Source of the DNA: Thiotrichaceae bacterium
GTDB lineage: Bacteria; Pseudomonadota; Gammaproteobacteria; Thiotrichales; Thiotrichaceae
DNA length: 45,342 bases
Reading direction: 5' to 3'
Assembly (NCBI GenBank): GCA_026988295.1
Contig: JALSLM010000150.1
Span: forward strand, 1-45,342
Shown here: positions 11,884 to 45,342 of the stretch, one piece after another
Position numbering within the stretch: position 1 is the stretch's first letter
How the letters are laid out: each line of letters starts with the position of its first letter
Notes under the pieces: model-generated
Told to the model about the DNA's origin: nothing
Databases searched by the model: none
What the model saw: the letters and a program-made list of their open reading frames with translations, nothing else
Position numbers and translations under genes: made by a program

Positions 11884-11955
11884 TGGTATCTCCTTGTATT
11901 TATTCCTAAATGGATAACTATAAGATACCCCTATCAATTAGGCAAATAATCCTTT

Positions 11956-12122
11956 CTAGGAGGCTGTCTGAGAACTCGGATTGAAACGAAAATGCCAGAA
12001 ATATTATAAGGTGAGCTTATCAAAAGAGGCGAATAGTTACTCTATTTAACGAATTTGATAAGTTCAGATTATGATGTTTATGGTATTTGCAGTCAATTCT
12101 TAGTTCTCGGACAGCCTCCTAG
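11956..12122. mobile_element. Element D copy 1 (167 bp, bounded by CTAG)
   Basis: CTAGGAGGCTGTCTGAGAACTCGGATTGAAACGAAAATGCCAGAAATATTATAAG ... TTAGTTCTCGGACAGCCTCCTAG. Confidence 0.85.
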
Positions 12123-13375: not shown

Positions 13376-13406
13376 TTTTAATACCTTGCTGATTTTTTAA
13401 TTTATT

Positions 13407-13459
13407 CTGAATCTGTGAGATTAATACGTCCTGTGCCGTAGTGACCTCATGGATTCAGG
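13407..13459. repeat. Element A short deletion derivative between ureG and ureF
   Basis: CTGAATCTGTGAGATTAATACG ... CGTAGTGACCTCATGGATTCAGG, both termini of element A retained. Confidence 0.7.
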
Positions 13460-18835: not shown

Positions 18836-18925
18836 ACCCATCCCCCCTGTTTTTTCCACTTTTTACATAAAACTCTATTTTTCTCTGCGTTATAAAAAAT
18901 GCTAAAAAAAGGGGGGGGGATGGGT
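18836..18925. repeat. Element C full copy (~90 bp)
   Basis: ACCCATCCCCCCTGTTTTTTCCACTTTTTACATAAAACT ... GCTAAAAAAAGGGGGGGGGATGGGT. Confidence 0.85.
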
Positions 18926-19012
18926 ATCTACAATATCTGAGAATTTAGCAAGCGTGAATTCCTATAATAATTGGACTTGATCAGGCTTTCCTTAAGATAC
19001 CTTTTTACTAAA

Positions 19013-20069: not shown

Positions 20070-20193
20070 TTTTATGGTTTCCTATTGTTATTAATTTAAT
20101 ACAACCATTTCGACAAGCTAATTATGATTTTGTTCACTTTGCTTGATTATTTATTGAGTTATTTTGCCGTATTCTTTAAACCATTATTTCATG

Positions 20194-20405
20194 CCTGAAT
20201 CTGTGAGGCTACTACGGCATGATGAACAAGTTATTGATTCCACAGCGGTTTAAAAAATACTCGCTTAACCTATGGGTGAAGCTAAGATTTAGTGAGCTTC
20301 CCACCTGCGCTAGCAGATGGTGAACTCAATTATGTAGAGCTTTTTAATTCCACTGTGAAACCAATACCTTATCCCTCATATCCGCATTAGCCTCGCGGAT
20401 TCAGG
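20194..20405. repeat. Element A copy 1 (212 bp structured element with terminal inverted repeats)
   Basis: CCTGAATCTGTGAGGCTACTACGG ... CCGCATTAGCCTCGCGGATTCAGG; internal hairpins shared with 35630-35842. Confidence 0.9.
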
Positions 20406-20429
20406 TCATGCTTCACATCCATATAAAAA

Positions 20430-25226: not shown

Positions 25227-25248
25227 AGTTTTTTATTGTTCCTAAATC

Positions 25249-25363
25249 CTAGGAGGCTGTCCGATAACTCAGATTGAAACGAAAATGCCAGAAATATTAT
25301 AAGATCAGATTATGATATTTCTGAAATTTTCGTTTCAATCGTAGTTCTCAGACAGCCTCCTAG
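25249..25363. mobile_element. Element D copy 2 (115 bp hairpin element bounded by CTAG)
   Basis: CTAGGAGGCTGTCCGATAACTCAGATTGAAACGAAAAT ... ATTTTCGTTTCAATCGTAGTTCTCAGACAGCCTCCTAG. Confidence 0.85.
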
Positions 25364-25520
25364 TATTGTAAAAAGTATCAAAAAAAGGGGGGGGGGATGG
25401 GTTTTTAATAAATTAGTGCCTGAATCTGTATCTTAGAGGTCGGATTAGCGATAATGTAATCCACCAGATCGTGCTAATACATCGGGCACTGCGCAATGGT
25501 CATTGCTCTAAGGAATCGAC

Positions 25521-25684
25521 TTAAGGAAACCCTGATCAAGTCCAATTATTTTTAGCTTGCCAAATCTGCCGATATTTTCCATGAAGATCGACGCAATAGA
25601 ATAACTATTACATCTCACTTCATGAAAAATAGGGACAGATTTTTCTGCGCTAAATACTAATCAACTTAATCAGGTTTTCCTTAA
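25521..25684. mobile_element. Element B full copy (164 bp)
   Basis: TTAAGGAAACCCTGATCAAGTCCAATTATTTTTAGCTTG ... AATCAACTTAATCAGGTTTTCCTTAA; right end overlaps the parE stop codon. Confidence 0.88.
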
Positions 25685-27567
25685 ATAATTGCAAGGTCTC
25701 CTTTTTCTTCTAGCCATGTCTTCCTATCTTGTGCACGTTTTTTTGCTAATAATAAGTCCATAACCGCACGGGTTTCTTCGGGGTTATTCATAGTAAGTTG
25801 CACCAAACGGCGAGTATCAGGGTCCATACTGGTTTCGCGTAATTGTAGTGGATTCATTTCACCCAAGCCTTTAAAACGAGTAACACTGATTTTGCCCTTG
25901 GTTTTTTTTGCTTTAACACGATCAAGAATGGCATTGAGTTCATCTTCATCCAGTGCGTATTCCACTTTTTTACCAATATCAATTCGATATAATGGAGGCA
26001 TTGCAATATACACATGACCCGCTTCAACCAACGCAGTAAAGTGTTGCACAAACAATGCACAAATCAATGTTGCAATGTGCGCGCCATCGGAGTCAGCATC
26101 GGCAAGAATACAGATTTTACCGTAGCGCAAATCATCCAGATTACTAGAATCAGGCTCTACGCCAATAGCAACCGATATATCATGGATTTCATTGGATGCT
26201 AGAATTTGTGAGGAATCAACCTCCCAAGTATTCAGAATCTTACCGCGTAACGGCATAATTGCCTGAAACTCACGACTACGTGCTTGTTTAGCCGAGCCTC
26301 CTGCAGAATCACCCTCTACCAAAAATAATTCAGTTTGATTTAAATCTTGAGAGCTACAATCTGCCAATTTTCCAGGCAAGGCAGGCCCTGTTGCAATTTT
26401 CTTGCGTACCACTTTTTTGCTGGCCTTGGCACGTTTTTGAGCATTATTAATAACATGCTCGGCAATCAGATCACCAATATTGGGGTTTTGATTAAGGTAT
26501 AAACTAAATGCATCTTTAACCACGCCAGCAACAAAACTAGCAGCCGCACGAGAAGAGAGTCTTTCTTTGGTTTGCCCAGAAAATTGTGGATCAAGCATTT
26601 TAAACGATAAAATAAAGCACAGCTTATCCCAAATATCATCAGGGCTTAGCTTTAACCCCCGTGGAAGCAAATTGCGAAACTCGGCAAACTCACGCAAAGC
26701 TTCTGTCAAACCCGTGCGTAGCCCGTTAGTGTGTGTGCCGCCCTGTGCTGTAGGGATCAAATTAACGTAGCTTTCCTGCACCAGATCACCGCCTTCAGGC
26801 AACCAGCAAAGCGCCCAGTCAACGGCTTCATTTTCACTTTTAAACTCACCTAAAAAAGGCTCTTCAGGCAGATTTTCAAACTCACTAATGGCATTTATCA
26901 AATAATCACGAATTCCATCTTCGTAATACCATTCTTCGGTCTCATTTTTTGCCTCTTCGGTAAACGTAATATGCAAACCAGGGCATAAAACTGCTTTTGC
27001 CCGAAGATTATGCTTGAGCCGTTTAATCGAAAATTTAACCGTATCAAAATATTGTGCATTGGGCCAAAAATGTAGAGATGTACCCGTATTTTTCTTGCCA
27101 ACCTTACCAATCACTTCTAGCTCAGTTTCTTTGTGCCCGTTTTCAAACACCATTTCATATTCTTTGCCATCACGCTTAATACGCACTTCAAGAATCAGAG
27201 AAAGCGCATTAACCACAGAGATTCCAACACCGTGCAAGCCCCCTGAAAACTGATAGTTTTTATCTGAAAACTTACCACCTGCATGAAGCGTACTAAGAAT
27301 AACCTCCACCCCAGAAACCTTTTTCTCAGGATGAATATCGACAGGCATACCACGCCCATTATCAGTGACAGACAAAGAACCATCGGTATGTAGAATCACC
27401 TGTATCTTATTAGCAAAGCCTGCCAAAGCCTCATCAACACTATTGTCAATCACCTCCTGTGCCAAATGATTAGGGCGCGAGGTATCGGTATACATACCAG
27501 GACGCTTGCGCACAGGGTCAAGACCGCTTAAAACTTTTATGGATTCAGCGTTATAGTCATTGCTCAT
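25681..27567 (-). CDS. parE: DNA topoisomerase IV subunit B
   Basis: 628 aa; VDEALAG, LHGVGISVVNALS, ELFLVEGDSAGGSAKQAR, RFKGLGEMNP; length and C-terminus fit ParE rather than GyrB. Confidence 0.95.
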   Translation of the reverse strand: MSNDYNAESIKVLSGLDPVRKRPGMYTDTSRPNHLAQEVIDNSVDEALAGFANKIQVILHTDGSLSVTDNGRGMPVDIHPEKKVSGVEVILSTLHAGGKFSDKNYQFSGGLHGVGISVVNALSLILEVRIKRDGKEYEMVFENGHKETELEVIGKVGKKNTGTSLHFWPNAQYFDTVKFSIKRLKHNLRAKAVLCPGLHITFTEEAKNETEEWYYEDGIRDYLINAISEFENLPEEPFLGEFKSENEAVDWALCWLPEGGDLVQESYVNLIPTAQGGTHTNGLRTGLTEALREFAEFRNLLPRGLKLSPDDIWDKLCFILSFKMLDPQFSGQTKERLSSRAAASFVAGVVKDAFSLYLNQNPNIGDLIAEHVINNAQKRAKASKKVVRKKIATGPALPGKLADCSSQDLNQTELFLVEGDSAGGSAKQARSREFQAIMPLRGKILNTWEVDSSQILASNEIHDISVAIGVEPDSSNLDDLRYGKICILADADSDGAHIATLICALFVQHFTALVEAGHVYIAMPPLYRIDIGKKVEYALDEDELNAILDRVKAKKTKGKISVTRFKGLGEMNPLQLRETSMDPDTRRLVQLTMNNPEETRAVMDLLLAKKRAQDRKTWLEEKGDLAII

Positions 27568-27608
27568 TAAAAATACATCTCAGAAACTCGTTTGAACTTA
27601 GCAGTATA

Positions 27609-27755
27609 TTAAGGAAACCCTGATCAAGTCCAATTATTTTTAGCTTGCCAAATCTGCCGATATTTTTCATGAAGATCGACGCAATAGAATAACTATTACG
27701 TCTCACCTCATAAAAAATAGCGACAGATTTTTCTGCGCTAAATTCTCAGATATTA
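27609..27755. mobile_element. Element B copy, right end lost at junction with element C
   Basis: TTAAGGAAACCCTGATCAAGTCCAATTATTTTTAGCTTGCCAAATCTGCCGATATTTTTCATGAAGATCGACGCAATAGAATAAC, nearly identical to 25521 onward. Confidence 0.85.
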
Positions 27756-27760
27756 TAGAT

Positions 27761-27846
27761 ACCCACCCCCCCTTTTTTTACATTTTTTTATAGCACAGAG
27801 TCATATAGTTTTATGTGAAAAAGTGGAAAAACAGGGGGGGATGGGT
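27761..27846. repeat. Element C full copy (86 bp)
   Basis: ACCCACCCCCCCTTTTTTT ... AAACAGGGGGGGATGGGT; reverse complement aligns throughout with 18836-18925. Confidence 0.85.
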
Positions 27847-27909
27847 TTATAGGTGATAAATGAATACTTTTCTTTGTATTTGAGCTTGTAGTTACCCAGA
27901 TTTTAGCCA

Positions 27910-35537: not shown

Positions 35538-35629
35538 AGTAGTTTATTAGTTAAATTTTATTAATTAAAGGTAATCATCGAAAAACAATTGTTGTGTAAA
35601 TAATTGTTTTTTATTGTTTTACACTTAAA

Positions 35630-35842
35630 CCTGAATCCGTGAGGTCACTACGGCACAGGACGCAAGCTATTGATTCATCAGGGGTTTAAAAAATACCCGC
35701 TTAACCTATGGGTGAAGCTAAGATTTAGTGAGCTTCCCATCTGCGCTAGTAGATGGTGAACTCAATTATGCAGAGCTTTTTAAATCCCGTGCTAAACCAA
35801 TATTTTACGCCCTGTTATCCGCATTGACCTCACGGATTCAGG
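35630..35842. repeat. Element A copy 2 (213 bp structured element with terminal inverted repeats)
   Basis: CCTGAATCCGTGAGGTCACTACGG ... CCGCATTGACCTCACGGATTCAGG; abuts the trpC stop codon at 35843. Confidence 0.9.
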
Positions 35843-36640
35843 TTAAAAGAAAAGCTGCTTGAGTTCAGCACCTGGATCTTCTGCGCGCATAAACGCCTCG
35901 CCAACGAGAAAAGCATTCACCTGATGATCACGCATAAGCTTAATATGATCGGCTGAATGAATCCCGCTTTCAGTTACGACGATACGGTTTTCAGGTATTT
36001 TATCTAATAAATCTAGGGTTGCATCCAATGAAGTCTCAAAGGTACGAAGATTACGATTATTAATACCTACCAGATCAGCCCCCAAAGGAAGAGATCGCTG
36101 TAGCTCTTCAACATCATGCACTTCAATTAAAACATCCATGCCAAGCTCACGCGCGAGTGTATATAAACTAGCCATTTGCTCATCACTAAGCACTGCAACA
36201 ATCAGTAAAATACAATCAGCCCCCATTGCGCGAGCTTCATACACCTGATAACTATCAACAATAAAATCTTTGCGAATAACTGGCAAATCACAAGCCGCCC
36301 TCGCCTGTTTTAAATAGTCATCAGAGCCTTGAAAAAAATCAATATCAGTCAAAACTGAAAGGCAACTAGCCCCACCTTGCTGATAGCTTTTAGCAATCTC
36401 AGCAGGCTTGAAATTTTCACGAATCACCCCTTTGCTGGGAGAAGCCTTCTTAATCTCAGCAATAACCGCAGGATCTTCAGCCGCAATTGTTTGTCGCATA
36501 GAATCAACAAAACCTCGCACGGGGGATGCCTCATGCGCTAGCTCAAGCAAAGAAAGCTCAGCAATAGTCTGTTTGCGATCACTGATCTCTTGCTGCTTGC
36601 GCTGAATAATTTTTTTAAGAATGTCGGGTGTATTGCTCAT
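35843..36640 (-). CDS. trpC: Indole-3-glycerol phosphate synthase
   Basis: 265 aa; [53 protein letters not shown]. Confidence 0.97.
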
Positions 36641-44708: not shown

Positions 44709-44831
44709 TTAATAAAGAAACCTTGATCAAGTCCAATTATTTTTAGCTTGCCAAATCTGCCGATCTTCATGAAAAATAGCGACAGATTTTTCTGTGCTAA
44801 ATTCTAATCGACTTAATCAGGTTTTCCTTAA
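44709..44831. mobile_element. Element B deletion derivative between dsbA-like gene and coq7
   Basis: AAAGAAACCTTGATCAAGTCCAATTATTTTTAGCTTGCCAAATCTGCCGAT ... CTAATCGACTTAATCAGGTTTTCCTTAA; lacks ~40 bp present in 25521-25684. Confidence 0.85.
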
Positions 44832-45342
44832 TTACTTTTTCTCTTTCTTAGTTAGCATATCAATTACTTTGAAGAGCTTCTCTTCACTTCCTGCCATATA
44901 AACACTGGTGCGGTATTTTCCATTGATAATAACAGCAGGAACAGATTGAGCTTTTGAAGTTTCACCAACTTCTTGTGCTCTTTTTAATTTAGCTTGAAAT
45001 GCCATTGAATTTTGTACATTTTTTACCTGTTCTTCTGTGTAGCCAAACTGCTTAAAAAGGCGAATTACAGTAGCTGGATTGCGTAGATTTCTTCTTTGAT
45101 CATGAATTGCCTGAAAGAGTTGTGTGATAAGTTCTTTCTCGCCCGTTGGATCAAGAATATCAGCTAAATAATAGGTATTTGCATCTTTTGCCCAGCTAGG
45201 GTTTAACATGGCAGGAACTTGTTTAAAATCAACGAACTCAGGATGGTTTTTCCTGTATTTAAGCATTGCCGGCTCAAGCGTATAACAATGTGGACAACCA
45301 AGCCACATTAACTCAATAACTTCAACTTTACCTTCTGGTGCA
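44832..45342 (-). CDS. dsbA: Thiol:disulfide interchange protein DsbA-like (partial, runs off right edge)
   Basis: APEGKVEVIELMWLGCPHCYTLEPAML open to the window edge; CPHC redox motif; AQSVPAVIINGKYRTS cis-Pro region. Confidence 0.9.
   Translation of the reverse strand, partial: APEGKVEVIELMWLGCPHCYTLEPAMLKYRKNHPEFVDFKQVPAMLNPSWAKDANTYYLADILDPTGEKELITQLFQAIHDQRRNLRNPATVIRLFKQFGYTEEQVKNVQNSMAFQAKLKRAQEVGETSKAQSVPAVIINGKYRTSVYMAGSEEKLFKVIDMLTKKEKK

Follow-up and report, generated by a model that had tools for sequence, protein, structure and literature searches.

The window, by which we mean the whole 45,342-nt stretch analyzed here (contig JALSLM010000150.1 of the Thiotrichaceae bacterium assembly GCA_026988295.1), carries two copies of a palindromic repeat, hereafter Element A. 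We refer to the strand that reads as minus in both window copies as R, and to the opposite strand as F. The features are as follows:

13406..13459: internally deleted element derivative, 54 bp
20189..20193: left target-site duplication of copy 1, TCATG, read directly
20194..20405, minus strand (strand R = minus): Element A copy 1, 212-bp MITE, GGCTA arm type
20194..20211, plus strand: left terminal inverted repeat of copy 1, CCTGAATCTGTGAGGCTA
20227..20239, minus strand: candidate IHF site of copy 1, AATCAATAACTTG, a match to the consensus WATCAANNNNTTR, read directly
20288..20335, plus strand: nested hairpin module of copy 1, TTTAGTGAG...ATTATGT, which converts the 160-bp into the 212-bp form
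20388..20405, minus strand: right terminal inverted repeat of copy 1
20406..20410: right target-site duplication of copy 1, TCATG, read directly
35625..35629: left target-site duplication of copy 2, TTAAA
35630..35842, minus strand (strand R = minus): Element A copy 2, 213-bp MITE, GGTCA arm type
35630..35647, plus strand: left terminal inverted repeat of copy 2, CCTGAATCCGTGAGGTCA
35663..35675, minus strand: candidate IHF site of copy 2, AATCAATAGCTTG, a match to the same consensus
35724..35771, plus strand: nested hairpin module of copy 2
35825..35842, minus strand: right terminal inverted repeat of copy 2
35843..35847: right target-site duplication of copy 2, TTAAA, which includes the stop codon of the minus-strand ORF 35843-36640

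The boundaries of both copies had been placed correctly (20194-20405 and 35630-35842) in an earlier, sequence-only reading of this DNA. The copies are 86% identical, both end in 18-bp terminal inverted repeats and are flanked by perfect 5-bp duplications, and no ORF of at least 100 aa overlaps either of them. The joint change that the same reading had described in the outer stem, GAGGCTA/TAGCCTC in copy 1 against GAGGTCA/TGACCTC in copy 2, is indeed there, as are the T.G wobbles it had noted in copy 1.

Across the source genome (2.77 Mb in 279 contigs, 89.9% complete), the end CCTGAATCYGTGAGG was matched 195 times in forward and 197 times in reverse orientation, i.e., ~195 end pairs, while the reversed control pattern of this end had no match in the genome. 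The 212-bp form is present in ~40 copies genome-wide; the commoner 160-bp form, to which most of the other copies inspected belong, is without the ~50-bp nested hairpin. An exact 5-bp duplication, in most cases with T first and A last, was found at 90 of 124 close copies from the source genome and its family relatives, for which boundaries were not chosen by the duplications, and this number dropped to 7, 0, 0, and 1 when the right flank was shifted by 1–4 bases. Given its 18-bp inverted repeats, 5-bp duplications, and high copy number, Element A is almost certainly a MITE, i.e., a short, multicopy, non-coding element with inverted repeats and target duplications.

Several variant forms were also observed. 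The nested hairpin module (TTTAGTGAG...ACTCAATTATGC) lies at different positions and on opposite strands inside the element in two lineages, measures 48 nt in the window copies and 30 nt in genomes G034 and G027, occurs at further sites (L207-L212), and is made of other letters with complementarity retained in genome G029; the module may be mobile in its own right, as a small independent unit. Derivatives of 54 to 61 bp (L065, L072, L074, and window positions 13406-13459) keep both ends, some of them with 5-bp duplications, and are possibly a minimal mobile form. Mosaic copies (L064:2761-2920 and L125:226 onward) combine the left arm of one type with the right arm of another so that their stems mismatch, which points to recombination between copies.

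Next, we considered which transposase might move the element. No match to an IS1380-type DDE transposase (PF13701) was found in the source genome, nor was an IS1380 transposase found in 19 of the 34 other element-bearing genomes, where weak PF13701 matches in relatives (about 19–22 bits) were not counted as IS1380; the helper of the source genome may thus be lost, unassembled, or too divergent. In the Thiotrichaceae MAG G025, however, PF13701 transposase remnants are preceded by an 18-bp end, CCTGAATCCGTGACTTCA, identical letter for letter to the MITE end of that genome. Complete IS1380 relatives with 5-bp duplications were identified in Ectothiorhodospira marina (1695 bp, ends CCTGAATCCGTGA) and in an uncultured gammaproteobacterium (1652 bp, ends CCTGATTCCGTAACTT). 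Distant MITE lineages with other ends had an IS1380-family counterpart with corresponding ends, either in the same genome or within the genus, including G564 (MITE end CCTAGATCCTGCAAGTG, IS1380-family end CCTAAATCCTGCAAGTG), G367 (CCCTAATCCCCAGATAGAAA and CCCAATCCCCAGATAGAAA, respectively), and G673/G536 (a ATCCGACATTG core). Over 18 bp, matched MITE-IS pairs agreed at 18, 16, 16, and 14 positions, compared to mostly 8–12 for mismatched pairs. Hence MITE and IS1380 ends vary together by lineage in four matching cases, with the partner in the same genome for G025, G564, and G367. This lineage-matched variation is the best evidence for mobilization by IS1380, and, judging from the end sequences, an IS1380-family transposase is very likely the helper, acting in trans. 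The sequence-only reading had raised the possibility of a mobile element and of a helper transposase: mobility is supported by the 5-bp duplications and by IS1380 elements with matching ends in relatives, and a probable helper was likewise found in relatives but not in the source genome, for whose population we predict an IS1380 element with ends CCTGAATCCGTGAGGTCA or CCTGAATCCGTGAGGCTA. Compared by eye, the interior of the element bears no likeness to the left end of the G025 IS1380 past the end repeat, so that Element A is best described as mobilized by, rather than visibly derived from, IS1380.

The element is distributed well beyond Thiotrichaceae. A DNA similarity search among 369 genomes across the class detected it in 13 other genomes, and a covariance model built on its inner 96 positions extended this to 21 other genomes from about 20 gammaproteobacterial families, along with 13 genomes of three more families from other parts of the phylum. 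Matches in other classes are individually weak (36–51 bits, Infernal) and mostly multicopy; their acceptance is based on the multiple copies, a length of nearly always 158–163 bp, and the usual presence of end repeats and 5-bp duplications. Among genome representatives, 31 of 32 measured 158–163 bp, and most had CC...GG ends and 5-bp duplications, although the boundaries of far copies were scored partly on duplications, so that far duplication counts are somewhat favored. We assign the interior to an old superfamily of near-constant length (158–163 bp without nested insertions). Spread by plasmids or phages was rejected, as no plasmid or phage matches to the element were found.

In both window copies, R is the better folding strand, with −104.4 kcal/mol for R (minus) against −79.2 kcal/mol for F (plus) in copy 1, and −105.0 against −89.9 kcal/mol in copy 2. 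Shuffled sequences never reached the fold stability of the element (z = −10.1 and z = −12.5 in two shuffle tests), which, together with the ~40 full-length copies in the genome, indicates that this folding is not due to chance. The R fold of the window copies is one long rod plus the nested hairpin. Small internal loops interrupt the rod, which contains an A/U tract and is capped by an apical hairpin; the latter, GCUU-C-ACC-NNNN-GGU-U-AAGC, is conserved in sequence within the close group and reads GUCG...CGGC in one lineage with pairing retained. The multi-stem hairpins initially described from the plus strand belong to the weaker fold and are not conserved; it is the rod on the minus strand that is. 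Rfam 15 returned nothing but tRNAs above the gathering score on the window, and sub-threshold matches only on the 160-bp form (the best being microRNA-precursor models), so that membership in a known RNA family was rejected.

Compensatory changes were frequent. In an alignment of 22 distinct sequences drawn from several families, 94.6% of cells were paired, double compensatory changes affected 31 of 68 pairs (a level reached by 0 of 500 shuffles), and the covariation score was 0.348, compared to 0.157 in shuffles (0/500 as high) and ≤0.076 with partners slid. Among close copies, pairing is preserved by 22 double substitutions whose two changes fall on the same branch of the tree; random re-pairing yields 1.2 on average and never more than 6. 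Covariation was weak in the 212-bp set alone, in which double changes compatible with pairing numbered 3 (control mean 0.6, maximum 3), and the signal thus comes from the 160-bp set. The sequence-only reading had proposed selection on, or correction of, the folded form, and a covariation test with more copies: in our analysis of more copies, covariation lies well above controls and supports selection (31/68 pairs; 22 changes against a mean of 1.2), while correction is disfavored by conserved mismatches and by one-sided wobbles that persist across genera and families.

We then asked whether both strands are equally maintained as folders. R was more stable than F in 123 of 125 close copies (median difference 19 kcal/mol). 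For copies from 32 genomes, arms were aligned as DNA, giving no credit for wobbles, and the copies were oriented by a profile based on sequence alone; R folded better than F in every one of these genomes, and G.U-type positions likewise outnumbered A.C-type positions in 32/32 genomes (totals 289 vs 36). When only the IHF motif was used to orient the far copies, R came out as the better strand in 27 of 31; the four exceptions, in which either both arms carry AATCAA-type motifs or the motif is inexact, are the reason why the profile was adopted. Since symmetry at the DNA level or a cruciform predicts equality, this asymmetry suggests that one strand, either RNA or single-stranded DNA, is selected to pair, and selection on the R-strand fold is likely. 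RNA is favored here because many wobbles persist, and these weaken DNA hairpins more than RNA ones.

The other possibility is that folded R acts as single-stranded DNA, exposed when the DNA is replicated or the element transposes, and offers the transposase or a host protein a hairpin to act on. R also folds better under DNA parameters (−53.5 vs −40.3), so a folded single DNA strand could yield the same wobble bias; in addition, the element is defined by its IS1380 ends and selection is apparently tied to propagation (see below). Yet each representative carries 3–13 G.T-type pairs, which RNA tolerates better than DNA, and a DDE transposase normally uses double-stranded ends, leaving a one-strand fold unexplained. 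Overall, we consider this alternative unlikely, and an R strand acting as RNA the better reading of the wobbles.

To evaluate where selection acts, we compared recent and long-term changes and the genes flanking each insertion. Reconstructed recent changes from Watson-Crick pairs gave 185 G.U and 124 A.C (1.5:1); among long-term survivors, this ratio is about 8:1. Among the 98 copies with readable flanks, both flanking genes have the same direction as R in 27 and the opposite direction in 32. This balanced orientation and the 185:124 split suggest that inserted copies are nearly unconstrained, and a fold that persists in lineages still spreading but fades in single copies argues for a role in propagation. 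These two signals, each of them negative or weak, suggest that selection acts on how the element propagates and not on regulation of the host.

An action in cis within host transcripts, as an mRNA stabilizer, processing site, or terminator similar to ERIC, Correia, or NEMIS elements, is in our view improbable. The fold is very stable, R is co-directional with the flanking genes at both window copies, and reviews present bacterial MITEs as folding transcripts regulating mRNA (PMC10969869, PMC2229807); against this, orientation is unbiased across the 98 copies, the decay of new copies hardly distinguishes the strands, and copy 2 is without a U-tract terminator. The operon-linked regulatory element suggested by the co-directional window copies was rejected on the 27 vs 32 count, and an intrinsic terminator or internal sigma-70 promoter was rejected as well, no promoter-like (sigma-70) or terminator-like (intrinsic, U-tract) site having been found in copy 2.

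It is very improbable that wobbles arise without any selection on the fold, through template switching between arms and strand-biased mutation: some double changes are confined to single copies, terminal repeats included, and deamination of one exposed strand would create G.T pairs, but conserved wobbles and mismatches are not erased and persist from one family to the next, the same classes of mutation are not clearly in excess at unpaired positions (45 vs 37, uncorrected for composition), and the arms of different families use different compensating letters.

Taken together, the best explanation, and one we regard as probable as a whole, is that Element A is an IS1380-moved MITE whose R-strand rod, probably as RNA, serves its own propagation. 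An IS1380-family DDE transposase would recognize the ends of the element, move it in trans, and duplicate 5 bp of target; the interior would be maintained so that R folds as a nearly fully paired rod relying on G.U pairs; and the R strand, most likely working as RNA, would serve the propagation of the element itself and not the genes beside its insertions. A wider generalization, which we find conceivable but doubtful, is that of a phylum-wide superfamily of gene-less transposons, nearly constant in length, in which a one-strand structured RNA is needed for spread, the core has endured, and the ends are exchanged to match the resident IS1380.

IHF may contribute by bending the short element so that its ends meet, and such a bend would help because a 160-bp duplex is stiff. 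On strand R, the right arm contains a match to WATCAANNNNTTR in 112 of 125 close (Thiotrichaceae-group) copies, and in 24 of 32 genome representatives compared to 0.8% of shuffled elements; AATCAANNNNTTG is a candidate IHF site. Alternatively, this motif could be conserved for the RNA instead of for IHF binding.

Element A shares with the IS1380 family (which includes ISEcp1) CC(T/C) ends, AT-rich 5-bp duplications, and lineage-matched terminal repeats, but is without a transposase, and its interior does not correspond to an internally deleted version of the IS1380 copies that we observed. Like ERIC, Correia/NEMIS, and other palindromic bacterial MITEs, it is short, intergenic, high-copy, and strongly folding. 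ERIC in Yersinia and Correia/NEMIS in Neisseria are the cis-acting, transcript-level systems for comparison, and 155-bp Correia elements also carry an IHF site (PMC2229807). However, the termini of ERIC and Correia are TA per review, while Element A has CC...GG (IS1380) ends with 5-bp duplications, which speaks against assignment to the ERIC/NEMIS-type RNA-processing MITEs; Element A is also spread more widely, is unbiased in orientation, and has a measured strand-specific fold. MITEAba12 of Acinetobacter is tied to a resident IS, ISAba12, through shared ends and duplication length (PMC6382973), but differs from Element A in its ends, 9-bp duplication, length (111–114 bp), and host family (Moraxellaceae). 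MITEs are abundant in the large sulfur bacterium Ca. Thiomargarita nelsonii, including one family that forms a large hairpin, and no parent IS was found for them (PMC4853749); by description, these are set apart by 10-bp duplications (hupL family) and TATAG repeats (hairpin family). The long terminal repeats and 5-bp duplications make an identity as REP/REPIN, i.e., GTAG-type hairpins mobilized by RAYT, unlikely.

Hairpins in bacterial MITEs are already known; the common interpretation is that they regulate mRNA or simply follow from the inverted repeats. Here, a one-strand fold is conserved with many compensatory changes across ~20 families, and its signal fades in individual copies. This allows "needed to spread" to be told apart from "useful to the host", and the contribution of hairpin structure to the success of MITEs becomes directly testable. 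In the open-licence literature, as far as it was accessible to us, we found no description of IS1380-driven MITEs, of the Element A sequence, or of a strand test on MITEs.

Other repeats were observed in the window. A palindromic repeat with ends CTAGGAGGCTGTC occurs at 11955-12122 and 25245-25367: its 168-bp copy has a G.U:A.C ratio of 7:1, with a fold that reaches −88 for the plus strand and −59 for the minus strand, and its 123-bp copy is symmetric. Another family, with ends TTAAGGAAACCCTGATCAAG, occurs at 25519-25690, 27607-27750, and 44710-44837, the first copy having a G.U:A.C ratio of 6:0 on the minus strand. With one-sided wobbles in these two unrelated repeats (7:1 and 6:0; a third repeat is at 1:2), the wobble bias may be general to palindromic repeats. 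Finally, short repeats in which A/T runs adjoin GGGGGGGATGGGT or its complement, often as inverted pairs, are present in at least 14 places of the window (e.g., 18836-18936 and 27755-27857).
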